From Cyanobacteriota bacterium (GTDB lineage: Bacteria; Cyanobacteriota; Cyanobacteriia; PCC-6307; Cyanobiaceae): DNA of 32,120 bases. The DNA lies in contig JAPLIE010000147.1 in assembly GCA_026389265.1 (NCBI GenBank), positions 1-32,120 of the forward strand, in the 5' to 3' direction. The position numbers and the translations under genes are program-made. The first letter of the stretch is position 1. The number at the start of each line of letters is the position of its first letter. The notes under the pieces are model-generated. The model did not search any database. It saw nothing but the letters and a program-made list of their open reading frames with translations, and was not told where the DNA came from. Below, one piece after another: positions 6,648 through 31,550 of the stretch.

Positions 6648-7335
6648 CCTTGCGACGAGAGAAATCCCTGGGGTAATTTTAAAGAAATCTATGGATAAAT
6701 CCCGGCCGATCCCGGTTTCGCAGCGGATGTGCGCAACCCTGCACCGCAACAGCACCATTGCCGCTCACGGCGCGCATCAGCCGCCGGGGACAGCGGCCTG
6801 GCAGCGCCGTTCGGCGATCCGCCCAGGCAAGAGCGCCGGAACGTTGTAGGGTTTCAAAGATCTGGAATGGACCGAGGCCGATCCTCGAAGCCGTCCCTCC
6901 AGACCAGCCCAGAATCACCATCAGGGCTCGCGCTCCCGAACCGCGACCAGCCCCGATCTCCCGTCTGCGCTTCAGCAAGGCCCGAACCATCCCCGAGAAA
7001 CCCGGGATCGGCCATCGCCCAACCAACCCCACCCCATCCGGTCCCGGCGAGCAGCCCCACGCAATGGGCAAGCCGCTCGGAGGCCTTTGGACCCACAGCC
7101 CCCTTGAGGGCATTCACCGCATCAGCATGACCAAACCGACCATGACGACACCAAAAACAGCCATCCCCATGGCCCGGGCCCACCCCTTCCGGGGGGCGAG
7201 CCCCTGGCCCAACCAACCCCGGACCGGACAAGGGACGCGCTCCACCGCTGTGGCCCCCTCCTGTCCCCTGCCGCGCCGCACCGCCAGCGGCCCGGGCCGA
7301 CCAGCCCCCACCTGGGAGGAACTCCTGGGTCAGCG
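6648..7335. other. 688-base stretch without a recognisable gene
   Basis: Several Pro/Gly/Arg-rich frames are open on both strands, as expected in GC-rich DNA, but none shows a known domain. The only candidate I would keep is the small minus-strand ORF at 7114-7311. The rest may hold the promoter of the HpsJ-like gene and decayed sequence. Confidence 0.4.
7114..7311 (-). CDS. Possible small single-pass membrane protein (65 aa)
   Basis: The GTG start at 7311 is preceded by CAGGAG at a workable distance. The first 45 residues are basic and Gly/Arg/Pro-rich. The C-terminus (RAMGMAVFGVVMVGLVMLMR) is a clear hydrophobic helix ended by Arg, which would anchor the protein in a membrane with its tail inside. 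No family is recognised. It lies just downstream of the RluA gene on the same strand. A plus-strand frame over the same bases is Pro-rich and less convincing. Confidence 0.3.
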   Translation of the reverse strand: MGAGRPGPLAVRRGRGQEGATAVERVPCPVRGWLGQGLAPRKGWARAMGMAVFGVVMVGLVMLMR

Positions 7336-8058
7336 CTAAGGGGCCCCAAGCCCTCGCCCAGGCTGCGGGTCAGATCCCAAGGGCGGCGTGAGCGGCCCCG
7401 GTGGCGCGCCTTGCCAGGGCAGGGGAGCCTCGAGACTGAGGGGCTCACCGGTGCGCGGATGCACCAGGTTGAGCCGCCAGGCATGCAGCCGCAGCCGGCC
7501 AGCAGCACCGCGACTGCGGGCAGGGCCATAGAGAGGATCCCCCAGGATCGGGTGACCCAGCCAGGCCAGATGGACCCGCAGCTGGTGGGAACGACCGGTG
7601 TGGGGCTCCAACCGCAGCCGGCACCAGCCCGCTCCCCGCTCCAGGCACCACCAGTCGGTGCGACTGGGCCGGCCGGCGGGATGCACCCGATAGAGGGGTG
7701 GCCGGTGGCGGGCCTTGGCCAGGGCCGCCTCCACCCGCCCGGCCGGGGCAGACGGCCAGCCGGCCACATCAGCCAGATAGGTGCGTCGCAGCCGCCGTGC
7801 CTCCAAGGCCATCGAAAGGCTCCGGTGCGTCTCCGGATCGCGGGCGAGCAGCAACAGGCCGGAGGTATCGCGATCGAGGCGATGGGGCAACCGCAGCGGC
7901 CCCCAGGCCGGCTCCAGACGGGCCGGCACCGCGTCGGCCAGGGCTGGGCCGCGGCCGCTCTGGCTGAGCAGCCCCGAGGGTTTGTCGATCACCAGCAACC
8001 AGGGATCGGCATGGAGCACCACGGGATCCGCCGGGACAGGACTCGGCATGGCAGGCAT
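7336..8058 (-). CDS. RluA-family RNA pseudouridine synthase
   Basis: 240 residues. Of three clustered ATGs, 8058 is preferred because GGGAGG precedes it by six bases. The family rearranges uridine to pseudouridine in rRNA or tRNA. The catalytic motif HRLDRDTSGLLLLAR is present with Asp at about residue 62, as is the second conserved block EPHTGRSHQLRVHLAWLGHP and the following GDPLYG. The opening strand DPWLLVIDKPSGLLSQSG is also typical. No S4 domain is present, so it belongs to the shorter RluA/TruC-like type; the target base is unknown. Length is normal for that group, and the gene appears intact. Confidence 0.88.
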   Translation of the reverse strand: MPAMPSPVPADPVVLHADPWLLVIDKPSGLLSQSGRGPALADAVPARLEPAWGPLRLPHRLDRDTSGLLLLARDPETHRSLSMALEARRLRRTYLADVAGWPSAPAGRVEAALAKARHRPPLYRVHPAGRPSRTDWWCLERGAGWCRLRLEPHTGRSHQLRVHLAWLGHPILGDPLYGPARSRGAAGRLRLHAWRLNLVHPRTGEPLSLEAPLPWQGAPPGPLTPPLGSDPQPGRGLGAP

Positions 8059-8453: not shown

Positions 8454-9167
8454 TCAACCCGAGGGCCGGCAGCGGGCCTTCAGAGCAGCGCGGAGGCGAG
8501 CCACCGCGTCATCCTGACCCTGCAGGGCAAAGGCCTCCTGCTCCAGCAGCCTGCTGCCGTGGTGATAGCTCGTGGTGAGAATGCCGCCGATCTCCTGGCG
8601 CACCACCGGATCGAGGCGCAGCCGCCAGCCGATCGGGGTGAGCTGCCCGTTGGGACAGCTCTGCACGGCATGCACCGCCTCATGCAGGAAGGTCTGGGGG
8701 CCGATGCCCAGATCGAAGGCGATCGGCGCCACCCAGAGGGTGCGACTGGCGGGCACGAACTGGCCGTAGGCCCGCGCTGCGGGGGGCGGAGCCCAGCGCA
8801 GCCGGAACCCATACCGCTCCAGATCGCGGGCCAGGGAGCGCAGCTCGGGGGGCAGCTGCGCTGACAGCTGGGGGTCAGTAGACCCCTGGGCTCCCCCGGG
8901 GGCCAGCCGGGCGGCCGGCCGCGATCCCGAAGGCGATCCCGAACGCGAACCCGGCGAGGCGGACGCCTGGGCCCGCAGGCTGCCGGTCCCGGGCAGGAAT
9001 GGAGCAGAGATCAGCAAGGATCGAGACGCGGCTGGTCGAGACGCAGAGGGTCGAACCGGGGCGGGTCGAACCGGGGCGGCTGGTGCACCGGTGGATCGCG
9101 GAGCAGTCACGCCGAGGGCTGCCAGCGGCAACGGCGCAGGAACGGAGAGGGGGGCGATCCAGGCCAC
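8454..9167 (-). CDS. Zinc-metallopeptidase-like protein with HEAVH motif
   Basis: 237 residues. The first ~100 are an Ala/Pro/Ser/Arg-rich low-complexity region with a possible hydrophobic leader. The C-terminal domain has HEAVH at 162-166 (TFLHEAVHAVQSCPNG), the HExxH zinc site of gluzincin-like peptidases. A conserved-looking EQEAFALQ at about 209-216 could give the third zinc ligand (Glu211). A strand YGQFVPASRTLWVAP precedes the motif as in edge-strand peptidases. The family is uncharacterised, so peptidase activity is inferred from the motif alone. It is followed on the same strand by the small 71-residue gene. Confidence 0.6.
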   Translation of the reverse strand: MAWIAPLSVPAPLPLAALGVTAPRSTGAPAAPVRPAPVRPSASRPAASRSLLISAPFLPGTGSLRAQASASPGSRSGSPSGSRPAARLAPGGAQGSTDPQLSAQLPPELRSLARDLERYGFRLRWAPPPAARAYGQFVPASRTLWVAPIAFDLGIGPQTFLHEAVHAVQSCPNGQLTPIGWRLRLDPVVRQEIGGILTTSYHHGSRLLEQEAFALQGQDDAVARLRAALKARCRPSG

Positions 9168-9185
9168 GCGGAAGGGGCGGGTTCT

Positions 9186-10145
9186 TCAGGGTCCCATCAG
9201 ATTGATGCGATAGAGCACCTCCTCCAGGGCCTCGGCGGCCCGCACCCCAGCCCAGCGCTGGGGATGGGCGGCGCTGCAGCAGGAAGGCACCGGCGCCAGG
9301 ATCGTGCTGGGGCGGGCATGGCAGAACTGCACCACGCTGTGGCGCTCGCCACTGGCGCCCGGGGGGGCCACCACCCGGTGCCAGCCGGCCGGAATGGTGC
9401 CGTTGCTGAGGCGCTCCAGCATCAGGCCGGTGTTGAGGATCACCCGACCCTCCGGCGGTGCGGCCGCCTGCCAGCGGCCATTCACCTCCACCTCAAGGCC
9501 TGCAGCGGTGGCGCGGGGCAGGGCGGTGATCAGGTTGATGTCGGCATGGGGGGCGGCCCAGTGGTGCCCGGCCGCCGGCGCGGCGGCCATGGGGGGATAG
9601 CGGATCGCGCGGGTGAGGGTGGGGGCCTCGTGCACCATCTCCTCGAAGAAGGTTTCGGCGCAGCCCATGCCGAGGGCGATCACCCGCAGGAAGCGCCGCT
9701 GCAGGTCGGCGAGGGCGGCATGGAAGCGCTCCAGCACCGCCGTGATCCCCGGCACCGCCACCTCGGGCAGCACCGGCTCCGGATAGAGCACGGGATAGCG
9801 GCGCCGTAGCGGATGGCCGCCGGGCAGCGGCGCCGACCAGTTGAGCATCTCCTTCCAGTCGGCCCGCTCGTGGCCGGCGGCGGTTTCCACCAGCAGGCCG
9901 GTGTAGCCGCTCTGACCATGGCTCAGGGGTGCGTGGAAGCAGGCCTTGCTGGCTGGATCGAGGGCAAAGAAGCGTTGCAGCAGGCCATAGGCGGTGTCGA
10001 GCAGATCGACGGGCAGATCGCTGCTGGTGTACACGAAGCCGGTGGCCAGGCTGCGGCGCACCCCATCCACCACCGCGGCGCGGGCCGCCCCATCGCCCCG
10101 CTCGAAGGCCAGCAGATCCACATCGAGGATGGCCAGTTCAGCCAT
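9186..10145 (-). CDS. Isopenicillin N synthase-like 2OG-Fe(II) oxygenase
   Basis: 319 residues. The non-heme iron site is complete: H200-x-D202 (APHADINLITAL), His256 (PAGWHRVV), and the 2-oxoglutarate-binding R268-x-S270 (ERHSVVQF). The N-terminal DIOX_N region (RRSLATGFVYTSSDLPVDLL) and the GYTGLLVETA block are also present. Family members oxidise small molecules; despite the name, most bacterial members do not make penicillins, and the substrate is unknown. A damaged copy of its first ~55 codons, plus about 45 bases of upstream sequence, lies at 11541-11750. The downstream gene on the same strand begins 19 bases after its stop. Confidence 0.85.
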   Translation of the reverse strand: MAELAILDVDLLAFERGDGAARAAVVDGVRRSLATGFVYTSSDLPVDLLDTAYGLLQRFFALDPASKACFHAPLSHGQSGYTGLLVETAAGHERADWKEMLNWSAPLPGGHPLRRRYPVLYPEPVLPEVAVPGITAVLERFHAALADLQRRFLRVIALGMGCAETFFEEMVHEAPTLTRAIRYPPMAAAPAAGHHWAAPHADINLITALPRATAAGLEVEVNGRWQAAAPPEGRVILNTGLMLERLSNGTIPAGWHRVVAPPGASGERHSVVQFCHARPSTILAPVPSCCSAAHPQRWAGVRAAEALEEVLYRINLMGP

Positions 10146-10274
10146 GGGCCGGGCAGCGCGGGAGTGCCCCGATCCTGGGCGACTACCGCTGCCGCGGCGA
10201 CCTCCTGCCTGAGAGCCTGAATCTCCTGCTGCTGAGCGACCTGAGCTGGCTGTTGATCGTTCCGGCCAGAGACC

Positions 10275-11408
10275 TCAGGTCCAGCATCGCCCGTTGATCC
10301 AGGCCGTCGTCTGCTGATCCGCCCAGCTGAGCGGGCTGCCACCCGGGAGGCGTTCGACCTGGTTGCGGCTGTGGAAGCCGTTATGGCCGCCCCGGGATGT
10401 GATCACGGTGTCCAACCAGGGACATTGCCGCCGCTGCGCCTGCATCGCCAGCTCGGCGGTGGCCGCCACCGGCACCCAGGGGTCATCGGCGGCATGAAGC
10501 AGCAGGATCGGGGGCAGAGTGCGGCTGCTTTCCACCGCTGCCAGCAGGGGCAGCAGCGGACTGGCGGCCGTGTAATAAGCCACCAGGGAGGCATGCCCCC
10601 AACGCGGCGCGGTGATGGCCGCATCGAAGGCCTGCAGGCTGCGCACCCGCCGTGCTCCGCGCAGCAGAGCCCGTTCGGCCGGCGTCACCCCGTGGGGATC
10701 GTCCAGGGTCAATTGGCACAGACGCCGCAGCACCCAATGGCGATAGAGCCGGTTGCGCGGACGATCGAATTGATCGGCGCACTGAACCAGATCCAGGGGG
10801 CTGCTGATGCAGACCAGGCCATCGAGCAAGGGCTGCTCCAGCGTGGCGTTGAGCAGCATCGTGCCACCCAGAGACAATCCCACCCCGACCAGGGGCAAGG
10901 AGGGTGTCCCTGCCGCCAGCTGATCGGCCAGCTGATCGGCCAGCTGGCGGGCCTGCCGCAGGGCAGGCAGCAGATCGCGGTTGCAAAGCGCGGCATAGGT
11001 GCCCGAAGCCAGAGGCCTGCCGGCGCCGGCACCGCGCATGTTGAGCCGCAGCACGGCAACCCCGGCGTTCACCAGATGGGCCGCCAGACGGCGGATGCCT
11101 GGTCCGTTTGAACAACCGCCAAGCCCATGGATCAGCACCACCAAGGCCCTGGGCGCTTCCGGCTGCGGTAGGGAGAGGCAACCCAGCAAGGCATCAGCAC
11201 CGCCGAGGTCGATGGTGAGCGCAGAGGAGCGATCCTCCGGCAGCCGCTGGGAACGGATCGTGTCCCGCATCGTCTGGAGATCGGCACCCCACCAGGGCAG
11301 CCGCTGGCGGAAAGGGGATGGCCTGAGCTGGGGCTGGTGGGACTCGCTCAATGGATCGCTGGGAATCGGATCAAGGGGAAGGTGTTGGCGTCGCCTGACG
11401 CCCGGCAT
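10275..11408 (-). CDS. YheT-type alpha/beta hydrolase
   Basis: 377 residues from ATG 11408; the ORF is open 33 codons further upstream, but that part overlaps the chimeric gene scrap. The nucleophile elbow is GVGLSLGGT (Ser179), the acid probably in ADDPWVP, and the catalytic His in SRGGHNGF. LIHGLGG gives the oxyanion loop, and the LPWWGADLQTM start is typical of YheT/embryogenesis-associated EMB8 hydrolases. These are membrane-associated serine hydrolases of unclear substrate, probably lipid or ester. A 12-base in-frame repeat near 10917-10948 encodes LADQLADQLA. The gene appears intact. Confidence 0.82.
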   Translation of the reverse strand: MPGVRRRQHLPLDPIPSDPLSESHQPQLRPSPFRQRLPWWGADLQTMRDTIRSQRLPEDRSSALTIDLGGADALLGCLSLPQPEAPRALVVLIHGLGGCSNGPGIRRLAAHLVNAGVAVLRLNMRGAGAGRPLASGTYAALCNRDLLPALRQARQLADQLADQLAAGTPSLPLVGVGLSLGGTMLLNATLEQPLLDGLVCISSPLDLVQCADQFDRPRNRLYRHWVLRRLCQLTLDDPHGVTPAERALLRGARRVRSLQAFDAAITAPRWGHASLVAYYTAASPLLPLLAAVESSRTLPPILLLHAADDPWVPVAATAELAMQAQRRQCPWLDTVITSRGGHNGFHSRNQVERLPGGSPLSWADQQTTAWINGRCWT

Positions 11409-11427
11409 CAACGTGGCTCCGTCAGCT

Positions 11428-11701
11428 CTAGCAGCATGAGCCGCTCGCGGCGTGCGTGCCTGATGTGGCAGCCGCTGCGGAAGCCGGCTCTGCTGCGCCC
11501 CTGTCAAACGGCAGGGAAGCGCCGCAGCCTTCGAACAGCCTGTAGGTGGTGTCGAGCAGATCGACGGGCAGATCGCTACCGGTGTAGACGAAGCCGGTGG
11601 CCAGGCTGCGGGGCACCCCGTCCACCACCGCGGCCCCGGGTTGCCCTATCGCCCCGCTCGAAGGCCATCAGATCCAAATCGAGGATGGCCGGTTTCGCCA
11701 T
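11428..11701 (-). pseudogene. Chimeric scrap: IPNS-like oxygenase start joined to ArsM end
   Basis: Reading from ATG 11701, the scrap begins like the oxygenase at 10145 (MAKPAILDLDLMAFERGD against MAELAILDVDLLAFERGD). It then suffers a one-base shift near 11650 and resumes as VDGVPRSLATGFVYTGSDLP. About 30 bases are identical between the copies around 11550. At the codons for TTYR it changes into the end of the arsenite methyltransferase at 12796-13899: LFEGCGASLPFDRGA here against LFEGCGSVLPFDGGA, both ending in a Cys-Cys pair. The junction lies where both parent genes encode Y-(G/R)-L, which suggests joining at microhomology. Homology to the oxygenase copy extends about 45 bases upstream of the ATG. 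It is not expected to be functional. Confidence 0.7.
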
Positions 11702-11908
11702 GGGCCGCGCAGCGCAGGGCTCCCCGATCTTCGGCGAAGGCTGCTGCGCCGGCCAGCCGTAAGGCCTCCACCGGATCGGCCCAGCAGAGGGTGGCGGTTG
11801 CCGGAATCGCGATCATTGATGGTAGGCAACATTCCCAGGTGTGCTGGGCGACAGCAAGGCAATGCGGGTGAATCATAATCCAACCCAACACCCTGAGACA
11901 TCGAAGCA

Positions 11909-12727
11909 GTGGCCTTCTCCTCAGTCCAGATTCAAGAGCTCTTATTTCTCTATCTCGGCAAGATTGCTTCGGCAACTGCTTTGTGGCTTGCAGGAGGTTG
12001 GGGCATCAAGCTCCTGCTGGGAATCTGCCGACGCTCCCTCATCAAAGGTGGCATGCAGCACGGCCTGGTGTCCTACATCACCTCAGTGATTGGCACTACG
12101 TTACGCGTTTTTCTTCTACTTTCCATCCTCGGTATCTTTGGCATTCAAACCACTAGCTTTGCAGCCTTGATTGCCGGTGCCGGCCTGGCCGTTGGAGCGG
12201 CCGCCAGCGGTTTATTGAGTAATTTTGCTGCTGGAGCCTTCCTCCAAGGCCTGCGGCCCTTCAAGGTAGGCGACTACGTTATCGCCGGCAACGTCGAGGG
12301 CACGGTCGAAGAAGTCGGCATGCTTGTCACCACGATCGTCACACCTGATCACGTGCACACCCTGGTTCCAAACGGCAAATTACTCACCGATACCGTTAAG
12401 AACTTTTCCTCTAATGATTATCGACGGGTGGAGTTGGAGGCGAACTTGGAAGAAGGCGACGACGTTGTGAAAGCAATTGAATTGCTGCAAAGCTCTCTGC
12501 AAACCGTTCCCAATCAGACCGCAAACAAACCGCCGATTGTTGATCTGATAGAATTTAAAAAGAAGGGACCGCGTCTTGCCGTTTGGCTTTACGCCCACAC
12601 GGAACATTATTGGCAGGTTTATTTTGACGCTAATCGCGTCATCTCCAACGTTTTGCTCCGCCATAATCTCAAGCCGACAGCCATCCCCAGCGATGATCCT
12701 TCAGGCGTGGTGTCCGGCACCTATTAG
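11909..12727 (+). CDS. MscS-family small mechanosensitive channel
   Basis: 272 residues with a GTG start at 11909. Three hydrophobic helices: about 8-33, 52-75, and the pore-lining TM3 AALIAGAGLAVGAAASGLLS at about 85-104 with its Gly/Ala pattern. Then follows the MscS beta domain (RPFKVGDYVIAGNVEGTVEE) and VPNGKLLTDTVKNFS, the most conserved blocks of the family. It would open under membrane tension and release solutes on osmotic downshock. The length suits the minimal MscS type. Its codon use is AT-richer than that of the flanking genes, so it may have been acquired separately; the flanking pieces are recombination scraps. Confidence 0.88.
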   Translation: MAFSSVQIQELLFLYLGKIASATALWLAGGWGIKLLLGICRRSLIKGGMQHGLVSYITSVIGTTLRVFLLLSILGIFGIQTTSFAALIAGAGLAVGAAASGLLSNFAAGAFLQGLRPFKVGDYVIAGNVEGTVEEVGMLVTTIVTPDHVHTLVPNGKLLTDTVKNFSSNDYRRVELEANLEEGDDVVKAIELLQSSLQTVPNQTANKPPIVDLIEFKKKGPRLAVWLYAHTEHYWQVYFDANRVISNVLLRHNLKPTAIPSDDPSGVVSGTY

Positions 12728-12795
12728 CCAAACCTGGTTGACTGCTGGATTGACTACTGCTCCAAGATCTCCCGGTTCCATGATCAGCTACTCCC

Positions 12796-13899
12796 TCAAC
12801 AACAGCCGCTGCTCGCTGAAGAGGTAGCTGCCGTGGAAGCCGGAGCGGCAGCGGCAATAGCACTTTTGGTTGCCCCCCCGTCAAAGGGCAGAACGGAGCC
12901 GCAACCCTCGAACAGGCCGTAGTGACGGCTGAAATCACCGATGAAGCTGAAATGGGGCGCCAGACGGCTATCGGCGAGCATGCGGAAAGTGTTGCCGCAC
13001 ACCGGAAACACCTTGCCGGCCTCGATCCAGTGGTGCTTGTCGAAGGGCAGGGCGTGGGGGTGTTCGGCAATCGTGCCGCGGTAGATCACCGCCTGGCCGT
13101 GGTCTTCGCAGGCATCCTCTAGCTCGGGGAGATGAAACAGGCGGTAGGTGGCCGAGAAGAAGCGGATCGCACCGGTGCGGGCGGTGAGCGCCGCATCGGT
13201 GATCTCTAGGGGCCGGTCGCTCACCAGGCGGGGATCGGCGAAGCCGGCCTGGCGGGCCAGGCGCAGGAAATCGTTCCAGTACAAGGCACCACTGAGGCAT
13301 TCGCCGTATAGCACCGGATCGTGGCGCAGCGCCTCGGGCACACGCCGGTCGGCATAGACATCGGCGAAGAAGAACTCACCGCCGCGCTTGAGCAGACGCC
13401 GCACCCCGTTCAGCACGGCCAGCTTGTCGGTGGAGAGATTCACCACGCAGTTGGAGATCACCAGATCGAAGCTGCCGGGCTCCAGCGGCAGCTGCTCGAG
13501 CTGTTCGATGCGGCCCTCCAGAAACCGCACGTTGTCGAAGCCGAACCGCTCGGCGTGGTGCTGCTGATGAGTCCGGGCCACCGCTAGCTGCTCTGGCGTC
13601 ATGTCCACGCCCACCACCTCACCGCCGGCGCCCACGAGCTGGGCCAGAAGGTAGACATCGCGGCCGCTGCCGCAGCCCAGATCCAACACCCGCAGACCCT
13701 CCAGCAATGGCGGCACCACCAGCCCACAGCCGTAGTAGCGCGACAACACCTCGGGATGGATGCGGGCCAGGAGCGGGCGCAGGCCCTCGGGAACACTGCT
13801 GGCGTCACAGCAGGCGTTGGTGCGCAGATCGGCGCTGCTGCTGAGGGTGGCGCCGTAGTACTCCTGCACGCCATGGCTCAGGTCGGTGGAGGTCGTCAT
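12796..13899 (-). CDS. arsM: Arsenite S-adenosylmethionine methyltransferase
   Basis: 367 residues from ATG 13899; the frame is open to 14130, but the extension is Arg/Pro-rich and overlaps a repeat. The SAM-binding motif LDLGCGSGRDVYLLAQLVGA is intact. Arsenic-binding cysteines expected in ArsM are present: the CC pair in TNACCDAS, Cys in LVISNCVVNLS, and Cys in FPVCGNTFRML. The gene ends in a Ser/Ala-rich tail with terminal Cys-Cys, as in several cyanobacterial ArsM proteins. The enzyme methylates As(III) to mono-, di- and trimethyl arsenicals, detoxifying it in the cytosol. No ArsR-type regulator is seen next to it. A second copy of its 3' end sits in the chimeric scrap at 11428. Confidence 0.9.
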   Translation of the reverse strand: MTTSTDLSHGVQEYYGATLSSSADLRTNACCDASSVPEGLRPLLARIHPEVLSRYYGCGLVVPPLLEGLRVLDLGCGSGRDVYLLAQLVGAGGEVVGVDMTPEQLAVARTHQQHHAERFGFDNVRFLEGRIEQLEQLPLEPGSFDLVISNCVVNLSTDKLAVLNGVRRLLKRGGEFFFADVYADRRVPEALRHDPVLYGECLSGALYWNDFLRLARQAGFADPRLVSDRPLEITDAALTARTGAIRFFSATYRLFHLPELEDACEDHGQAVIYRGTIAEHPHALPFDKHHWIEAGKVFPVCGNTFRMLADSRLAPHFSFIGDFSRHYGLFEGCGSVLPFDGGATKSAIAAAAPASTAATSSASSGCC

Positions 13900-14103
13900 G
13901 GCGGTGGGCGGAAGGATGGAGGTGCGTGCTTGGTGGGGCCCAGCCCCAACCACCTCGCTGGTCAGGAGCATGTCAGGTGGTCGAGCTGGCACGGAATCAC
14001 CCGAAGGCACACGCTCACCATCGCCGCGAGGGCGTGGGCAGCCGCATCGATGCCCGCGTCGCCAAGCGCACGGATGTCTGTGGCTAGGGGAACACCCCGT
14101 CTT

Positions 14104-14140
14104 GCACTCAGAGCGGTTCAGCCCCTTCACTCAGGATGGT
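14104..14140. repeat. Left copy of a 37-bp exact direct repeat
   Basis: Identical base for base to 31514-31550, in the same orientation, 17.4 kb apart. The right copy includes the last codons and stop of the fic gene (TILSEGAEPL on the minus strand); the left copy has the same bases without a fic gene. The pair encloses the restriction/toxin-antitoxin region and may mark the ends of an inserted island. Confidence 0.75.
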
Positions 14141-14351
14141 CGCGGATTTCCCTCAGCCAGCGAGAGGAGAGGCGGAAACCACTGGCCATCCGGGCCAAGC
14201 CGTGTTCGAGCGCCGCCACGTAGTTCGATACCTCCCCAACATCGTCAAAGGGAACCCCAGGAGCCTCCTCAAGCTCGAACAACAGCAGGTCTGACAGCGA
14301 CGACAGGGTTCCCTCGATCTGGGAAACCGGGCCACTAAGACTGACACACAT
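14127..14351 (-). CDS. Small hypothetical protein overlapping the zinc-ribbon gene (74 aa)
   Basis: ATG 14351 (MCVSLSGPVSQIEG) lies 17 bases inside the end of the upstream zinc-ribbon gene, an overlap typical of coupled genes. The sequence is a plausible soluble helical protein: LSSLSDLLLFELEEAPGVPF, then VSNYVAALEHGLARMASGFR and SSRWLREIRDHPE. No known family is recognised. Its final codons and stop fall in the 37-bp direct repeat, so its natural C-terminus may have been replaced by the repeat. Confidence 0.4.
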   Translation of the reverse strand: MCVSLSGPVSQIEGTLSSLSDLLLFELEEAPGVPFDDVGEVSNYVAALEHGLARMASGFRLSSRWLREIRDHPE

Positions 14352-15150
14352 AATCAAATGCTGATTCTTCCATTGTTCCCGGCAACACCTCGGTCCAGGT
14401 CAATTGATCAATAGTCCTGTAGCGCTTCGAGGGTGAAGAGCAATAAAACAAGTAGGGGGTGGGCCTGCCGAAGATATTGGCTTTTCCGAGTTCTCCTATT
14501 CCTCGTTTCTGAATAATCCGAACTGACATTACACTGCCATCGACAGCAGTTGCAACGTTGCACCAGCCATTAGCTCCACATTGTATTTTGTTTGCTGAGG
14601 TCTGAGGCGAAGACGCATCAACGGGGGAGGGCGAAGGGGCCGCCTGGGCAGGTGAAGGGGCCGCCTGGGTAGGTGAAGAAGCAGGCGGGGATGCGGACGG
14701 CGGACGGTACGAACCCATCTCCTCAGGTGAGACAAAGTTGGGCGAGCCTTTCCTGTTGGCCTCAAATATGGCTTTTGCCATAGGCGACGTCGTGGAGGCA
14801 GTCAGCGTCGGGGCTGGCGGAGGCGGAGGTTGCGGAGCAGGTGGCGGGAGCGAAGCGGCAGGCGGTGGGGATGGTGGCGGGGATGGCACAGCTTCACCCG
14901 TGTCGATGGTCCTTGGATTTGCAAACACGTATAAAACCCCCAGTAATCCGACTGGAATGAGCCAGGCTATGGTTGCTTTTTGATTTTTAATATTGGATCT
15001 TGGCGCTTTTCCCAAGGGGATGCTATAGCCTGCCTGTCGAGAATCAAGCTCGCTAAGTGCCATTCCGCATGCGGCGCAGACAGCCCTGCCGGCAAGACTC
15101 CTGTCATGCCTAATAGTCTTGCTGTTGCATTGGGGGCACTTAAAGGCCAT
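14335..15150 (-). CDS. Zinc-ribbon membrane protein with proline-rich linker
   Basis: 271 residues. Layout: residues 1-35 are a zinc ribbon (CPQC...CAAC, spaced like TFIIB/DUF-type ribbons); about 60-78 are one transmembrane helix (ATIAWLIPVGLLGVLYVFAN); about 88-200 are a Pro/Ala/Ser-rich linker including PSPPPSPPPAA and AAPSPAQAAPSP repeats. The C-terminal ~75 residues form a compact domain with Cys pairs (IQCGANGWCNV, LFYCSS, YVCQS), perhaps disulfide-bonded outside the membrane. No known family is recognised. The architecture suggests a cytoplasmic sensor ribbon joined through the membrane to an external domain. It lies between the 37-bp repeat and the cas3 remnant, and its Cys-containing C-terminal domain looks unlike the core genes. 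Confidence 0.6.
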   Translation of the reverse strand: MAFKCPQCNSKTIRHDRSLAGRAVCAACGMALSELDSRQAGYSIPLGKAPRSNIKNQKATIAWLIPVGLLGVLYVFANPRTIDTGEAVPSPPPSPPPAASLPPPAPQPPPPPAPTLTASTTSPMAKAIFEANRKGSPNFVSPEEMGSYRPPSASPPASSPTQAAPSPAQAAPSPSPVDASSPQTSANKIQCGANGWCNVATAVDGSVMSVRIIQKRGIGELGKANIFGRPTPYLFYCSSPSKRYRTIDQLTWTEVLPGTMEESAFDYVCQS

Positions 15151-15277: not shown

Positions 15278-15332
15278 CCTCCATGTGCGCTGTCTTCTCC
15301 TGAGCCCATGGCTAGAGGTAAGCCACCAGCCC
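15278..15332. repeat. Left copy of the cas3 5' leader (55 bases, 53 identical to 30016-30070)
   Basis: This stretch lies directly before the Cas3-like ORF and recurs in the same orientation at 30016-30070 with two mismatches. A further 21 bases from within the cas3 coding sequence (15428-15448) follow at 30073-30093. The right-hand copy is therefore a deleted version of the same cas3 start. Confidence 0.8.
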
Positions 15333-15342
15333 ACCCGCCCAC

Positions 15343-16359
15343 TTGCACCCCGCCAGCTACTTCGAGGCTGCAGCAGGCTTCCCGCCGCTTCCCTTCCAGC
15401 TGGCCTGGATGGAGCAAGCAGAAGCCTCGCCGATCCGCACCCTGGAGGCGCCCACAGGGCTGGGCAAGACCTTGGCCACGCTGGTGGGCTGGCTGTGGGA
15501 CCGGAAGCAACGGCCTCAAGCCACCCCCCGGCGGCTGGTGTATCAGCTGCCGTTGCGCACCCTCACCGAGCAGATTGCGGTGGAGTGCCGGGCGGTGATG
15601 GACCGGCTGGGGGTGGCCATCCCGGTACATGTGCTGCGGGGCGGCCAGATCGATAACGATTACGCCGATGCCTTGGCGGCCGAGGCGGTGATCGTGGGCA
15701 CCCTGGATCAGGTGGTGAGCCGCCAGCTGATGCGCGGCTACTGCTGCTCGCGCTGGAGCTGGCCGCGCCACTTCGCCGCCCTCAACACCGATGTGCGGGT
15801 GGTGGTGGACGAAACCCAGCTGCAGGGAGCCGCGGTGCGCACCGCCATCCGCCTGCAGGAGCTACACCAGCAACTAGGCGGCCCGGCGCCTCGGGAGCTG
15901 GTGCTCTGCTCCGCCACCCTTGATTCCGCGATCCTGCCGGCCGGCACTCCCCGCCATGGCCTGAGCGATGCCGACTACGGCCATCCCGTGGCGCAACGGA
16001 AGGTGGGCCGCACCAAGTCGCTCACCTTGGCGGGCGACACCGATCCGGCGGCCTTGGTGAGAAGCCAGCACCAGGAGGGAACGCTCACGCTGGTGGTGGT
16101 CAATCAGGTGCGGCGCGCCCAGGCGATCGTTGCCCAGCTGCAGGGCCTGCCAACCCTGCTGCTCCACTCCCGTTTCCGCCGGGCTGAACGGCAGGCCATC
16201 GAAGTCCAGCTGCGGGAGTTCCGGGGCGTGGTGGTGGCCACCCAGACGGTGGAGGCCGGGATCGATCTCGATGCCCGGCTACTGATCACCGATCTGGCTT
16301 TAGCCATGAGCTGGCTTCTGCTCTGGTGGCCCTGCAACTCGTTGAGGAGTCGGTGCTGA
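15343..16359 (+). pseudogene. cas3: Truncated Cas3 helicase, type I-G-like, orphan
   Basis: A 338-codon frame from TTG 15343; a stop lies in frame at 15319 and no ATG is available. It starts like type I-G (formerly I-U) Cas3 (YFEAAAGFPPLPFQLAWMEQ). Helicase motif I is APTGLGKTLATL, motif Ia LVYQLPLRTLTEQ, motif II VVVDETQLQG (the DExQ form typical of I-G Cas3), motif III LCSATLD, and later VVATQTVEAGIDLDA. The VGTLDQVVSRQLMRGYCCSR block is also characteristic. After LLITDLA the similarity stops abruptly, so the motif VI QR..GR arginines and the C-terminal part (including any HD nuclease) are missing. No other cas gene or CRISPR array is visible. It is probably dead. Confidence 0.7.
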
Positions 16360-16732: not shown

Positions 16733-18712
16733 ATGCCCCTCAGCACCGACCTCACCGACGCCCTGATCGCCTTGATCCCTGAGGACGGCAGCCGGATCAG
16801 CAATGGCGAGATCAAGGCGGCGCTGGAGCAGGAGGTGGAAGAGCCGCTCAGCGACGCGCAGGTGGAGGAAGCCAAAAACCTGGTGGTGGCGATGGGTGCG
16901 GCCGAGAAAGCGCGAGGGCCCGGCGGTGGCTTGAAGGCACCGGGTATCGAGCCGCCACCACGAGCGGCGGCTCGCTCACGCAACAGCAATGGTGGCCCGG
17001 CCCAGGAGCGCAAGGCGTCTGAGACTGCAGCACCCGCCTCCAGCCCGCCCCCGGAGCCCGGAGATCCTTCCCGCGGCTTCCATGGCTGGGTGGCACCGCC
17101 CCAGCGCGACCTGGGTAAGGCCGCGATGGAGAAGAGCCTCTGGAGCGCGGCCGATCAGTTACGCGCCAACTCGGGTCTCAAGGCTCAGGAGTATTCGGGC
17201 CCGATCCTCGGCCTGATCTTCCTGCGCTTCGCTGATGCCCGCTTCATGCCGAAGTGGCAGATCCTCAAGGCCGCCGGCGGCAGCGAACGGCGCGGCAGCC
17301 GTGAGGAGGATCCCAACGCCTACCAGAGCGAGGGCCTGCTCTACCTGCCTCCCGGCGCCCGCTACCAGCAGCTGCTGGAGTTGCCCGAGGGCGCCGATAT
17401 CGGCGAGCACCTCAACACGGCCATGCAACTGATCGAGGAGCACAACAGCAAGCTCGCGGGGGTGCTGCCACGCAGTTACAACCTGTTCACGCCCCAGCTC
17501 CTGAAGGAGCTGCTCAAAGGCATTTCCGAGATCCCTACGGATCTGGAGTTCGATGCCTTCGGGCAGATCTACGAGTATTTTCTGGTGGAGTTTGCCCGCA
17601 GTGAGGGGCAGAAGGGGGGCGAGTACTTCACGCCGCCGCCGATGGTGATCCTGATTACTGAGATCGTGGAGCCCTTCGCCGGTCGGCTGCTGGATCCCGC
17701 TTCAGGTTCAGGCGGTATGTATGTGCAGAGCGCCCGCTTCGTGAGCGCCCACCGCGGCAACCCAGCCGGCGACCTGGCCATCTTTGGTGTGGAGAAGACA
17801 CTGGAGACCGGCCGACTCTGTGTGATGAATCTCGCTGTTCATGGCCTGGAGGGAAACATCAAATATGGCGGCGACAGCAACAGCTACTACGAGGATCCGC
17901 ACGCTGCTGTCGGCGTCTTTGACTATGTGATGGCCAACCCGCCGTTCAACGTGAACGCGGTGGACATGAAGAAGTTGAGTGCCGTGACCGGCCCCGGCCG
18001 CCGCTTTCCGTTCGGAACGCCGAACGTGGACAACGCCAACTACCTCTGGATCCAGCTCTTCTACTCCTCGCTGAACGAGAAGGGCAGGGCCGGCTTCGTG
18101 ATGGCCAACTCCGCCTCCGATGCGCGGGGTTCAGAGCAGGCGATCCGCCAGAAGTTGATCGAGGCGAAGGCGGTGGATGTGATGGTGGCGGTGGGGCCGA
18201 ACATGTTCTACACGGTGACGCTGCCCTGCACCTTGTGGTTCTTCGATCGCGGCAAGGTGGGCACGGCGCGGGAGAACACGGTGCTGTTCCTCGATGCCCG
18301 CCATCTCTACCGCCAGATCGACCGGGCCCATCGCGACTGGAGCGAAGCCCAGATGGGCTTCCTGGCCAACATCGTGCGCCTCTATCGCGGCGAGGCGGTG
18401 GACGTGACCCTCGGCGGCGAGGAGGCGCAGCGCTGGATCGAGGCCTATTTCGGTTCGGAGTCCGGCGACGCGCCCGCCTATCGCGACATCGCCGGCCTGT
18501 GCAAGGCGGCCACGCTGGATGCGATCGAAGCCCAGGGCTGGAGCCTCAACCCCGGCCGCTATGTGGGCGTGGCGGCGGGGGAAGACCTCAGCGATGAAGA
18601 CTTCAAGGAGCAGCTGGAGAAGTTGCAGGAGGAACTGGAGGGGCTGAATGGCCAGGCCAGGGAGCTGGAGGCGACGATTGCCGCGAATGTGGCGGGGATC
18701 CTGGAAGCATGA
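16733..18712 (+). CDS. hsdM: Type I restriction-modification methyltransferase subunit
   Basis: 659 residues. It transfers methyl from SAM to adenine N6 in the site chosen by HsdS and is also needed for HsdR cleavage. Residues 1-65 look like a small winged-helix domain (ALIALIPEDGSRISNGEIKA), followed by a Pro-rich linker (about 70-118). The HsdM N-domain begins at MEKSLWSAADQLRANSGLKA. The SAM motif DPASGSGGMYVQSA lies at about 320 and the catalytic NPPFN at about 402. The last 29 residues form a coiled-coil-like tail (LNGQARELEATIAANVAGIL), the part that packs on HsdS in type I enzymes. That tail is encoded twice more downstream. Its TGA overlaps the next ATG (18709). Confidence 0.95.
   Translation: MPLSTDLTDALIALIPEDGSRISNGEIKAALEQEVEEPLSDAQVEEAKNLVVAMGAAEKARGPGGGLKAPGIEPPPRAAARSRNSNGGPAQERKASETAAPASSPPPEPGDPSRGFHGWVAPPQRDLGKAAMEKSLWSAADQLRANSGLKAQEYSGPILGLIFLRFADARFMPKWQILKAAGGSERRGSREEDPNAYQSEGLLYLPPGARYQQLLELPEGADIGEHLNTAMQLIEEHNSKLAGVLPRSYNLFTPQLLKELLKGISEIPTDLEFDAFGQIYEYFLVEFARSEGQKGGEYFTPPPMVILITEIVEPFAGRLLDPASGSGGMYVQSARFVSAHRGNPAGDLAIFGVEKTLETGRLCVMNLAVHGLEGNIKYGGDSNSYYEDPHAAVGVFDYVMANPPFNVNAVDMKKLSAVTGPGRRFPFGTPNVDNANYLWIQLFYSSLNEKGRAGFVMANSASDARGSEQAIRQKLIEAKAVDVMVAVGPNMFYTVTLPCTLWFFDRGKVGTARENTVLFLDARHLYRQIDRAHRDWSEAQMGFLANIVRLYRGEAVDVTLGGEEAQRWIEAYFGSESGDAPAYRDIAGLCKAATLDAIEAQGWSLNPGRYVGVAAGEDLSDEDFKEQLEKLQEELEGLNGQARELEATIAANVAGILEA
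18623..18712 (+). repeat. hsdM 3'-end repeat, copy A (in hsdM)
   Basis: The last 30 codons of hsdM. Copy B (19501-19590) matches 75 of 90 bases; copy C (20780-20836) matches 52 of the last 57 bases. Every copy ends with the TGA that overlaps or directly precedes the next gene's ATG. Confidence 0.95.
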
Positions 18713-19113
18713 CCGCCGCCACCCTCGCCGACTGGAGCACCCCCCGCCCCTTCGCCCTGCCCGACCTGGGTCCGGGCCTCGACGGCGAGCGGCGCGTGGA
18801 CTTGGAACTGGCGCTGCGGGCAATCGCGGCCGATCCCACGGTGCAAGCGCTGGTGCTGTTCGGCTCCCGCGCCACGGGCAGCGCCCGACCCAATTCAGAC
18901 CTCGACCTGCTGGTGGTGGAGCACACCCCCCACCTGGAAGGGCAGGAGAAGGTGGCCAGCTGGTGGCGACACTTTGAGCCACTCAAACCGCTGAAGCTGC
19001 CGGTGGACCTGATCGTGAGCGGCAGCGCTGATGCCGCCCGTCTGGCCGGCTCCCGCTGGCATGTGATCAGTGAAGCAGCCCGCCATGGGCGGGTGCTGGT
19101 GGTACGGCCATGA
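18709..19113 (+). CDS. mntA: MNT-type minimal nucleotidyltransferase (antitoxin of MNT-HEPN pair)
   Basis: 134 residues; its ATG overlaps the hsdM stop (ATGA). The nucleotidyltransferase motif LFGSRATGSARPNSDLDLLV (about 45-64) gives the GS and D-x-D metal site, and a third Asp follows in LPVDLIVSG. Members of this family paired with HEPN proteins inactivate the toxin by adding AMP to it. The gene immediately upstream of a HEPN gene, with a four-base overlap, fits that pair exactly. It is inserted between hsdM and hsdS and flanked by copies of the hsdM 3' end. The ~40-residue N-terminal extension is slightly longer than in the minimal forms. Confidence 0.85.
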   Translation: MTAATLADWSTPRPFALPDLGPGLDGERRVDLELALRAIAADPTVQALVLFGSRATGSARPNSDLDLLVVEHTPHLEGQEKVASWWRHFEPLKPLKLPVDLIVSGSADAARLAGSRWHVISEAARHGRVLVVRP

Positions 19114-19478
19114 CCCCCCAGGATGATGCCCGCGTGCTGTTAGCCCTGGTGGATCGCCACTTGCGCGCCCTGCGGCTCAACCTGGATCCGGCCTACCCGG
19201 ACGAGGAATGGGGCTTCACGGCCCAGCAGGCGGTGGAGAAGCTGCTCAAGATAAAGATAGTCCTACACGATGACCGGCCGCCGTTCACCCACATGCTCAA
19301 CGTGTTGGCTGAGCTGGCGGGGGTGGAGCTGGATCCATTGCTGTTAGCGCTGCAGCCCTATGCAGTAGAGGCCCGTTATGAGGAGGGGCCATTTCCGTTG
19401 CCGAACGGTCGGATGGGGATCCTGGCGGAAATTGAGCAATTACGGGATGATGCTGTTCGTGGGATTGGGGAGGAGTAA
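19110..19478 (+). CDS. hepT: HEPN-domain protein (toxin of MNT-HEPN pair)
   Basis: 122 residues, starting in an ATGA overlap with the nucleotidyltransferase gene. The helical HEPN pattern is clear: WGFTAQQAVEKLLKIKIVLH, then THMLNVLAEL. An R56-x4-H61 string (RPPFTH) fits the R-x4-6-H motif used by HEPN ribonucleases, though I cannot verify that it lies in the active position. The family cuts RNA when released from its MNT partner and is used in phage defence. The stop at 19476-19478 is followed one base later by the ATG of the small hsdM-tail ORF, with GGGGAGGAG at the end of this gene as ribosome-binding site. Confidence 0.82.
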   Translation: MTPQDDARVLLALVDRHLRALRLNLDPAYPDEEWGFTAQQAVEKLLKIKIVLHDDRPPFTHMLNVLAELAGVELDPLLLALQPYAVEARYEEGPFPLPNGRMGILAEIEQLRDDAVRGIGEE

Positions 19479-19479
19479 A

Positions 19480-19590
19480 ATGAGCCTTTGGCATGATTGG
19501 TTGCAGCAGGAACTGGAGGGGCTGAATGCCCAGGCAAGGGAGCTAGAGGCAACGATTAGTCTGAATGTGGCGGGAATCCTCGATTTATGA
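19480..19590 (+). CDS. Mini-ORF encoding an HsdM-like C-terminal tail (36 aa), copy B
   Basis: ATG 19480 has a strong upstream GGGGAGGAG and reads MSLWHDW, then LQQELEGLNAQARELEATI and SLNVAGILDL, nearly the tail of HsdM. Codons 8-36 are the copied part. The stop TGA overlaps the ATG of the dinD fragment (19587). The peptide would be a lone amphipathic helix. It may be made as a translational coupler or HsdS-binding peptide, or merely be left over from cassette insertion. Its divergence from copy A (15 of 90 bases) suggests it came from a different hsdM allele. Confidence 0.55.
   Translation: MSLWHDWLQQELEGLNAQARELEATISLNVAGILDL
19501..19590 (+). repeat. hsdM 3'-end repeat, copy B
   Basis: 90 bases aligned without gaps to the last 90 bases of hsdM, 75 identical. 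Many differences are third-position changes, so the copy was kept as coding sequence for some time. It separates the mntA-hepT pair from the dinD-rhuM pair. Confidence 0.95.
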
Positions 19591-19901
19591 ACAGCGAATC
19601 CATTCAGGAACTGACAACCACATTTGCAGGCCATGCCCAGCAGACGGAGAGCGGCATCGAGTTTTGGCAGGGTCGCGATCTTCAGCCGCTGCTGGGCTAT
19701 ACGCAGTGGCGGAACTTTGTGAGCTTTATCGGCAAACCAAAAACCGCTTTTGAACGTTCAGGCAGGGAGCGTAAAGACCATTGTGCTGACGTCAGCAAAA
19801 TGGTCGATCTTGGCTCTGGTAGCCAGCGTGGAGCCGAGGACATCATGCTGATGCCCGGAGACTTGCTTGTGAGGACTAGGACCAGAGGTGTATGGGCATG
19901 A
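19587..19901 (+). pseudogene. dinD: Truncated DinD (DNA-damage-inducible protein D)
   Basis: Residues 1-88 match the DinD/BRO-N-like start: GIEFWQGRDLQPLLGYTQWR, then FVSFIGKPKTAFERSG, and the block KMVDLGSGSQR..EDIML. In intact DinD (about 270-280 residues) this is followed by RYACYLIAQNGD. Here it changes to an unrelated 17-residue ending and stops at 19901, so about two thirds of the protein are lost. In E. coli DinD inhibits RecA filaments after DNA damage. The stop overlaps the rhuM ATG (19898) as ATGA, so the fragment could still serve to pass ribosomes on to rhuM. Confidence 0.75.
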
Positions 19902-20698
19902 CGGCACAACCTGGTGGGCAATTTCTCATTTATCAGACTGAGGATGAGGAGCTGAAGATCGAGGTTCGCCTGGAGGCCGAGACCGTCTGGCTGAGCCAGC
20001 AGCAAATGGCCACCCTGTTTCAGACCAGCAAGCAGAACGTGAGCCTGCATCTTCGTAATATCTTCGCCGAGAGCGAGTTGCGCGAAGATTCAGTTGTCAA
20101 GGAATCCTTGACAACTGCCGCTGACGGGAAGAGTTATCGCACGAAGTTTTATAGTCTCGATGCCATTATCTGCGTTGGCTATCGGGTCAAGAGCACCATC
20201 GCAACACGCTTCCGCATCTGGGCCACCCAGAAACTGCGCGAGTACATTGTGAAGGGATTTGTCCTGGACGATGAGCGCTTAAAAAATCCTGATCAGCCCT
20301 TCGATTACTTCGATGAGCTGCTCAGACGGATTCAGGACATTCGCACGTCCGAGCGTCGCTTTTATCAAAAGATCACCGACATCTACGCCACCAGCATCGA
20401 TTACGATCCAACCCAGCCGGAGAGTATCGACTTCTTCAAAACGGTGCAGAACAAGATGCACTGGGCCGTGACCGGAAAAACAGCAGCCGAGATCATCCAA
20501 TCGCGTGCTGACAGCAAACAACCCAATATGGGGTTGACAAATTGGCGCGGCGCCAAAGTCCGCAAGCAAGATGTGACCATTGCCAAGAACTACCTCAGCG
20601 AGGAAGAGCTGGCCTCCTTGAACAATCTTGTTGAGCAGTATCTGATCTTTGCCGAGGGCCAGGCCATGCGCCGCACTCCCATGCACATGAAGGATTGA
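19898..20698 (+). CDS. rhuM: RhuM-family protein, probably shortened
   Basis: 266 residues from ATG 19898, in an ATGA overlap with the dinD fragment; another ATG lies two codons upstream. Typical RhuM blocks: VRLEAETVWLSQQQMATLFQ (winged-helix-like), FYSLDAIICVGYRVKS, FRIWATQKLREYIVKGFVLD, and the C-terminal EQYLIFAEGQAMRRTPMHMKD. Usual members continue with a Trp (KDW...) and about 60-70 more residues. Here the Trp position is read as TGA, and one extra G would restore the Trp, so a one-base deletion is likely. Function is unknown; RhuM genes are common in pathogenicity islands and beside restriction systems. Confidence 0.75.
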   Translation: MTAQPGGQFLIYQTEDEELKIEVRLEAETVWLSQQQMATLFQTSKQNVSLHLRNIFAESELREDSVVKESLTTAADGKSYRTKFYSLDAIICVGYRVKSTIATRFRIWATQKLREYIVKGFVLDDERLKNPDQPFDYFDELLRRIQDIRTSERRFYQKITDIYATSIDYDPTQPESIDFFKTVQNKMHWAVTGKTAAEIIQSRADSKQPNMGLTNWRGAKVRKQDVTIAKNYLSEEELASLNNLVEQYLIFAEGQAMRRTPMHMKD

Positions 20699-20752: not shown

Positions 20753-20836
20753 ATGAGATTGGATAGTCTTGATGTTTGGGCCAGGGAGCTGGAGGCCACG
20801 ATTGCCGCGAATGTGGCGGGGATTCTGGAGGTGTGA
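20753..20836 (+). CDS. Mini-ORF encoding an HsdM-like C-terminal tail (27 aa), copy C
   Basis: ATG 20753 follows a very strong AAGGAGGGGAGG at 20734-20745. The peptide MRLDSLDVW is followed by ARELEATIAANVAGILEV, identical to the HsdM tail except for its last residue. hsdS starts three bases after its stop. It may ensure efficient translation of hsdS, or be the original hsdM end left behind when the accessory genes entered. No database family is expected for so short a product. Confidence 0.55.
   Translation: MRLDSLDVWARELEATIAANVAGILEV
20780..20836 (+). repeat. hsdM 3'-end repeat, copy C
   Basis: 57 bases, 52 identical to the end of hsdM (copy A). Closer to A than B is, and placed immediately before hsdS, where the real hsdM end would be in an uninterrupted operon. 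Confidence 0.95.
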
Positions 20837-30015: not shown

Positions 30016-30093
30016 CCTCCATCTGCGCTGTCTTCTCCTGAGCCTATGGCTAGAGGTAAGCCACCAGCCCGGCGCCGATCCGCACCCTGGAGG
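30016..30093 (+). repeat. Second, internally deleted copy of the cas3 5' region
   Basis: 30016-30070 matches 15278-15332 (53 of 55 bases). 30073-30093 matches 15428-15448, inside the cas3 coding sequence (all 21 bases). The ~95 bases in between are missing here. It lies 14.7 kb from the first copy, in the same orientation, and has no helicase gene attached. Confidence 0.8.
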
Positions 30094-30763: not shown

Positions 30764-31109
30764 TCAGCTCTCAGCTTCACCACCCCAAGCTCCCTGCCTG
30801 CCACTCAAGGGCAACGTTGGATAGATTATGATATCACCATCAGAAATCAGAGAGTCCCCAAGCTGACCGCATAAAGATTGAGTCTCGCGTCTGATCCCGC
30901 CTCGAACTATCTCACCCAGCTCCTCTCCGGCAACGGAGCCGCCACGGCGCAGCGCATCGAGCAGCAAGCTGGCCACCCGGCCACCCAGTGACTTGCCGCA
31001 GAGGAACAGCGGCCGTTCCCCGCCCTCCAGGATCAGCTGATCGCAGAAGCTCCCCAAAGCAACACCAGCAGCCGGTCGGGGCCGGCGCGGCGGCCAGGCC
31101 GTCGATCAA
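30764..31109 (-). pseudogene. Remnant of an alpha/beta hydrolase (KANL3/Tex30-like)
   Basis: The readable part has RPLFLCGKSLGGRVASLLLD, the nucleophile elbow (G-K-S-L-G-G) of the dienelactone-hydrolase/KANL3-Tex30 type. Upstream, LIDGLAA appears in a different frame, so at least one frameshift separates the start from the Ser. After LRRGGSVAGEELGEIV the similarity is lost and the Asp and His parts of the triad are missing. It lies end to start behind the DUF427 gene on the same strand. No activity is expected. Confidence 0.5.
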
Positions 31110-31399
31110 CCGTTGCTGACCGTGACCCCTTTCCAGAAGGCCACGCGGCCGCGAATCTCCTCGGCGGCGGCCTTGGGGTCGGGATAGAACCAGGCGGCGT
31201 TGGCATTCACCTTCCCGTCCACCACCACGTCGTAGTAGTGGGCCTCACCCTTCCAGCCGCAGACGGTGCGGTGGCTGGAGGGCCGGAAGCAGTCGCCGCT
31301 CAGCGCCTCCGCCGGGAAGTAGGCGTTGCCCTCCACCTTCACGATGTCGCCGCTATCAGCGATCACCTGGCCAGTCCAACTCGCCTGCATCGATGTCAT
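31106..31399 (-). CDS. DUF427-domain protein
   Basis: 97 residues from ATG 31399 (MTSMQASWTGQVIADSGDIV); a second ATG lies three codons in, and the frame is open upstream into the 37-bp repeat, which is not needed. The family pattern is complete: VEGNAYFPAEALSGDCFRPS, then TVCGWKGEAHYYDVVVDGK, AAWFYPDPKAAAEEIRGRVA and FWKGVTV. DUF427 is a small beta-rich (beta-tent) fold, common in cyanobacteria, with no established reaction. Length is normal. The gene runs in the same direction as the upstream fic gene. Confidence 0.85.
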   Translation of the reverse strand: MTSMQASWTGQVIADSGDIVKVEGNAYFPAEALSGDCFRPSSHRTVCGWKGEAHYYDVVVDGKVNANAAWFYPDPKAAAEEIRGRVAFWKGVTVSNG

Positions 31400-31513
31400 G
31401 GGATTAGGGATGGCAATCATGGCGAATCCCGGGAGCCCGCGAGCAGGATCCCACCACCGGTAGCCGGCGAATGGCGCCGAGGCCCTGATGGCATGGGCTG
31501 TGGGTCTTGCAAG

Positions 31514-31550
31514 GCACTCAGAGCGGTTCAGCCCCTTCACTCAGGATGGT
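31514..31550. repeat. Right copy of the 37-bp exact direct repeat
   Basis: Identical to 14104-14140. Here it covers the last codons and stop (TGA at 31518-31520) of the fic gene. An element that integrates at the 3' end of a gene duplicates just such a piece, which makes this the more original copy. Confidence 0.75.

Follow-up and report, generated by a model that had tools for sequence, protein, structure and literature searches.

On the minus strand at 11428-11756 of the window, by which we mean the whole 32,120-nt stretch of cyanobacterial, presumably picocyanobacterial, DNA analysed here, the head of a 2OG-Fe(II) oxygenase gene runs into the tail of a gene for an ArsM-like methyltransferase. 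The reading we favor, with a probability of roughly 0.58, is that this chimeric scrap is a dead recombination joint of the tandem-duplication type. The scrap alone matters little, being the scar of an old rearrangement and ordinary in kind. It is, nonetheless, one case where junction sequence, position and relatives favor a duplication-type origin over a deletion.

The chimera and its join

The self-comparison of the window that was proposed in a first-pass annotation of this DNA aligns 11543-11753 with 9988-10198 at 86.3% identity over 212 columns (E 2e-65). About 210 nt of the scrap head thus correspond to the start of the window's own oxygenase gene together with the 53 nt 5' of its ATG, whose equivalent in the scrap is 11701. 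The annotation had noticed this upstream homology and had ended the scrap at 11750, which is about right, as the homology reaches 11753-11756. At the other end, the stop codon TAG lies at 11428-11430, and the last ~38 codons are ArsM-like, closing with Cys-Cys-stop. In DNA comparisons the tail matches the arsM tails of two relatives in the genus, G023 (116 nt, 72%, E 4e-11) and G026 (116 nt, 73%, E 4e-12); in the self-comparison the match to the window's own arsM is weaker (52 nt, 77%, E 5e-4). Protein searches recover the scrap from both sides, with residues 19-67 of the oxygenase query (E 6e-12, 42 genus genomes) and residues 325-367 of the ArsM-like query (E 2e-6, genus genomes). When the scrap was used as a DNA query against its own genome, the best 40 of 108 candidates comprised the scrap, the oxygenase and, beyond these two, matches with E of at least 0.055; the own arsM was absent among these listed matches. 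The two-sided homology upholds the annotation's view that the start of an oxygenase gene has been joined to the end of arsM. Both pieces are fragments, of ~52 of 319 oxygenase codons and ~38 of 367 ArsM-like codons.

Table 1. Features of the scrap and its surroundings (window coordinates)
Feature	Position	Strand	Description
Intact 2OG-Fe(II) oxygenase, source of head	9186..10145	-	PF03171 and PF14226; matched in 40/42 genus genomes
Alpha/beta hydrolase	10275..11408	-	PF12146 on ORF 10275-11507; 86% to G023, opposite orientation
ArsM-like tail of scrap	11428..11535	-	LFEGCGASLPFD...GSCC and stop TAG; 72-73% over 116 nt to G023/G026 arsM tails
Junction	11536..11545	-	Scrap CTACAGGCTG; own arsM and G023, G063, G026 oxygenases CTACGGCCTG
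Oxygenase-head part of scrap	11546..11756	-	53 nt upstream and first ~52 codons of 2OG-Fe(II) oxygenase, 1-nt insertion; 86% to 9988-10198
Low-GC segment (53.3%), scrap to arsM	11757..12792	+	MscS-type channel gene 11909-12727, PF00924
Intact ArsM-like methyltransferase, tail's family	12796..13899	-	PF13847; NF008823 169.8 bits

The methyltransferase gene that we call arsM scores under the NCBIfam arsenite-methyltransferase cut-off (169.8 versus 263 bits for NF008823). Its product is best described as ArsM-like, with arsenic methylation a putative activity. The terminal Cys-Cys that the annotation saw in the scrap, a putative arsenic-binding pair, is indeed kept, and the same CC end is found in all 30 arsM tails read, the own one included, with some further listed arsM falling outside these 30.

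Where do the two parts meet? The 10-nt string CTACGGCCTG is common to the own arsM and to the oxygenases of G023, G063 and G026. The own oxygenase today reads TATGGCCTG at this place, with TAT replacing TAC. The G023 oxygenase and the own arsM share seven exact matches of at least 10 nt, and the join lies on one of them; in the own-own, own oxygenase-G023 arsM and G023-G023 pairings no exact match of that length falls on the join. A short repeat of the sort expected at a duplication joint is therefore present with the oxygenases of the three relatives and is inexact with the present own oxygenase. The annotation placed the join at codons where both genes encode Y-x-L; to this we add the correction that the exact 10-nt identity links the own arsM with the oxygenases of the three relatives. 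The comparison points to a scrap formed by joining at a short repeat, provided that the oxygenase then read as it does in the relatives.

Several other explanations of the sequence were set aside. An assembly duplicate is unlikely, because the two copies of the oxygenase head differ by 14% and an indel. An inverted repeat of the scrap ends (11508-11533 / 11735-11760) was equalled in 71 of 200 shuffles, as by chance. No Rfam match to an RNA element was found in 9000-14500, and the scrap strand folds slightly better than its shuffles (z -2.4; 2/100 equally good).

Gene order and a probable duplication-type origin

Read along the plus strand, the region runs from oxygenase (-) through hydrolase (-), scrap (-) and MscS (+) to arsM (-). 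The scrap thus sits between the oxygenase and arsM on their strand, and its two parts are the head of the gene downstream and the tail of the gene upstream, as in a duplication joint. Adjacent oxygenase-arsM pairs, which the annotation had suggested looking for, were not found in any of the 32 relatives for which matches to both genes were listed, as far as contigs show. The two genes lie on different contigs in 30 of these and more than 1.1 Mb apart on one contig in the other two; contig ends could hide neighbors, the arsM contig of G023, for example, being 4,567 bases. The order arsM-hydrolase-oxygenase is absent from every relative examined. In G023 the oxygenase adjoins the hydrolase and no scrap was found, and relative to that genome the hydrolase in the window is inverted. 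The hydrolase ATG, a start of our choosing, comes 19 nt after the scrap's stop. The MscS gene, whose closest relative in the genus is 55% identical, belongs to a segment of 53.3% GC in surroundings of 66-68%.

A duplication would account for this layout as follows. The ancestral minus strand probably carried arsM, hydrolase and oxygenase in that order. An exchange between CTACGGCCTG in the arsM tail and CTACGGCCTG in the oxygenase head, whether by unequal sister exchange or through a circle that was excised and reintegrated, would duplicate the segment between them. Both genes would remain whole, and a joint of oxygenase head and arsM tail would come to lie between them. The duplicated middle would later have lost one of its two copies, with the low-GC piece and its MscS gene now in that place. 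A tandem duplication would thus give the product seen, in the position seen, in one step.

We say that the scrap fits a tandem-duplication joint, which is short of proof of membership, because its flanks are without homology and there is no second hydrolase. The sequence after the scrap's stop (11370-11427) has no homology with that after arsM (12701-12795; 189/300 shuffles equal), and a search of 11757-11908 for remains of another hydrolase copy found none (163/500 shuffles equal). Flanking homology amounts to the 53 nt 5' of the oxygenase. A weak candidate for residual duplicated sequence was rejected. Lenient comparison gave hits down to E 0.004, with 11743-11862 resembling the hydrolase interior; 16/500 shuffles equal this when the ends are set at 11740-11908, against the 163/500 for 11757-11908, and after several tries it is put down to chance.

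Age of the head and parentage of the tail

How old is the joint? Here G000 denotes the window's own genome. The scrap head differs at 16/159 sites from the own oxygenase and likewise at 16/159 from that of G023, the two oxygenases differing from each other at 4/159. Across seven genes of the block that G000 and G023 share, four-fold sites diverge by 7.6-23%; ORFs 1404-2201 and 7122-7769 (3% and 4%) were dropped from this range, since codon position 2 has the most changes in them, suggesting a wrong frame. Set against this range, the head differences suggest a joint roughly as old as the G000-G023 split. The tree does not separate placement of the head with G000 from placement with G023 (AU p 0.47 and 0.50).

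The annotation held that both parents are still present. For the oxygenase this stands. For arsM, the adjacent gene is of the right family and is no more than a candidate parent of the tail, since the tail is no closer to the own arsM than to the tails of some other species: of its 42 core bases, 31 agree with the own arsM, 32 with G026 and 34 with G061, and the own and G026 cores differ from one another by one base. The tail has also diverged more (11/42 versus the own arsM) than the head (16/159; Fisher p 0.011), and the contrast holds with the G026 arsM as reference (Fisher p 0.035). Such a difference is not expected if the scrap arose in one event from the genes now present.

Could the tail derive from an older arsM allele, the arsM at the joint having later been replaced by the present one? 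We put this forward tentatively, as something less probable than its contrary. It would be compatible with either a duplication or a copied patch of the kind considered below, and the odds of these readings are therefore not additive. The tail tree, in which G000, G023, G026 and G034 form a starred clade (97/93) that excludes the scrap, speaks for it, and so does the comparison with G034 (L054), in which identity is 94% for the arsM at 12796-13899 but only 74% for the oxygenase; within the genus, arsM seems to pass from lineage to lineage. Against this, the tail tree has just 57 aligned columns, and the AU test does not reject the scrap inside the four-tail clade (p 0.18-0.39; scrap with G000, p 0.18) or together with all four tails (p 0.43). 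The full arsM tree, moreover, keeps G000 with G023 (87/96, not starred). A sister grouping of the G000 and G034 tails in the tail tree was discarded, the full gene disagreeing with it (AU p 0.028 against). The scrap tail may nonetheless preserve a trace of an earlier arsM allele.

Alternative routes and coding status

A second way to make the scrap is by templated insertion. A repair polymerase would have started by copying the oxygenase head, changed template to an arsM tail at the 10-nt string and changed again into the hydrolase start, leaving a patch of ~330 nt with the intervening DNA unduplicated. This would explain why homology extends no further than the stop codon of arsM on one side and 53 nt beyond the oxygenase start on the other, and it fits a hydrolase that is flipped, with new ends, relative to G023. 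The price is several switches, and short repeats have not been shown at the two outer ends. Such a patch is a live rival, because the flanks are without homology, there is no second hydrolase and a low-GC MscS piece occupies its space; we nevertheless think it unlikely, at perhaps one chance in several.

The annotation itself took the scrap for the product of a deletion in a former oxygenase...arsM arrangement. In detail, a second oxygenase would have stood upstream of an arsM, head to tail and near the surviving genes, with a deletion between 10-nt repeats. A deletion would account just as well for the short repeat at the join, and the tail may derive from another arsM. A deletion requires, however, extra copies of both genes and the opposite order, since the window has arsM upstream of the oxygenase, and the survey of the 32 relatives (matches listed, within the limits of their contigs) offers no such neighbors. 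Nor does it predict the scrap's place exactly between the parents on their strand. Duplication fits better than deletion on these two counts, and we rate deletion somewhat below the templated patch.

Does the joint encode anything? The frame from the oxygenase ATG equivalent stops after 41 codons because of the 1-nt insertion in the head, a disrupted frame such as pseudogenes have. A frame of 66 codons at 11428-11628, opening with GTG at 11628, does cross the join in the frame of both parents. Among 300 sampled family genomes, 85 of which gave some match to it, no match outside the own genome spans all 66 residues. The other matches are oxygenase starts, some reaching residue 58 in long open frames, or arsM tails, classes that were judged by ranges and frame lengths and not individually. 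Relative to the own oxygenase, the 16 changes in the scrap head fall 7/2/7 over the three codon positions (few changes), versus 3/6/16 for the G063 oxygenase and 1/5/13 for that of G026. That the open 66-codon frame is a small real gene for a Cys-ending peptide is most improbable, given the lack of a full-length match in the family sample, the codon pattern without third-position excess and the finding of no sigma-70-like site in 10100-12000. Caution is due here, and the frame should not be annotated as an arsenic-binding protein. The joint would yield no protein from the oxygenase start and would simply drift; we infer that it has no function.

In the genomes searched, the scrap is also confined to its own genome. 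In a sample of 300 family genomes a degenerate junction pattern occurs in the own genome and in no other, and a stricter pattern finds six stretches in 84,980 species genomes, a set that may omit the own genome or one very close, in Pontibacter (3), Actinoplanes, Segatella and Ruminococcus. The annotation's reading of it as a scrap is upheld against the refuting case that the annotation itself named: an intact fused homologue was found neither in the genus, nor in the 300 family genomes, nor in the 84,980 species genomes. The own genome is the sole carrier among 42 genus genomes (on the arsM side, among the matches listed). In that set the match in G005 to the widespread oxygenase is weak and partial. 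The second oxygenase matches in the genus are the scrap and the split oxygenase of G008, nothing else, and among the arsM matches listed the scrap is the sole short tail piece of its kind observed.

The surrounding region and comparable joints

Rightwards from the oxygenase the contig forms a hot spot of rearrangement. Two pieces of it, a helicase fragment (15594-15973) and a stretch at 31024-31441, recur in G023 with their order unchanged, and between them lies the window's extra DNA, which includes a type I restriction system. The helicase fragment belongs to a Cas3-like piece at 15343-16359 (338 aa; PF22590, PF00270), and its shared part is 93% identical to G023 L081 15174-15553. Two pairs of direct repeats, each pair ~15-17 kb apart and placed within small frames or at their ends, lie at 14104-14140 and 31514-31550 (37 nt, exact) and at 15278-15332 and 30016-30070 (55 nt, 96%). 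In G023 a fragment at L081 14622-15104, which we take to resemble an amylase end, runs antisense into the hydrolase end and is possibly a further scrap at the hot spot.

Within the restriction system the end of hsdM (its last 51-84 nt) is present three times, at 18622-18705, 19500-19583 and 20779-20829. The first and second copies enclose an MNT-HEPN pair (18709-19478), the second and third a RhuM gene (19892-20698), and the third stands directly before hsdS. In G019, G095 and G029 the hsdM tail recurs once 1.4-2.8 kb downstream, and the small genes in the interval resemble toxin-antitoxin pairs by eye. G024 has a single copy with an hsdS-like frame immediately behind it, and in G063 the contig ends before the region can be judged. 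This looks like repeated cargo capture in which the hsdM end is recopied. Might one process, copying the 3' end of a resident gene beyond captured DNA, have made the arsM-tail and the hsdM-tail copies alike? In the first case arsM would be followed by the MscS piece with the oxygenase head and then by the arsM-tail copy, which stops 19 nt short of the hydrolase; in the second the layout would be hsdM / MNT-HEPN / hsdM-tail copy / RhuM / hsdM-tail copy / hsdS. We consider a common process improbable, at long odds.

How does the scrap compare with known structures? In the novel joint of a tandem duplication, which lies between intact copies, the downstream gene contributes its head and the upstream gene its tail. 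The scrap is unlike such a joint in that the middle is not seen twice and flank homology is missing; it is like one in its head-to-tail fusion between intact copies. Gene remnants and chimeric pseudogenes, more broadly, arise by illegitimate recombination at short direct repeats. Like them, the scrap has two gene pieces, a join at a repeat of ~10 nt, a broken frame and a distribution limited to one lineage. Nothing essential sets it apart from these pseudogenes, and it lies between both of its source families in the order of a duplication joint.
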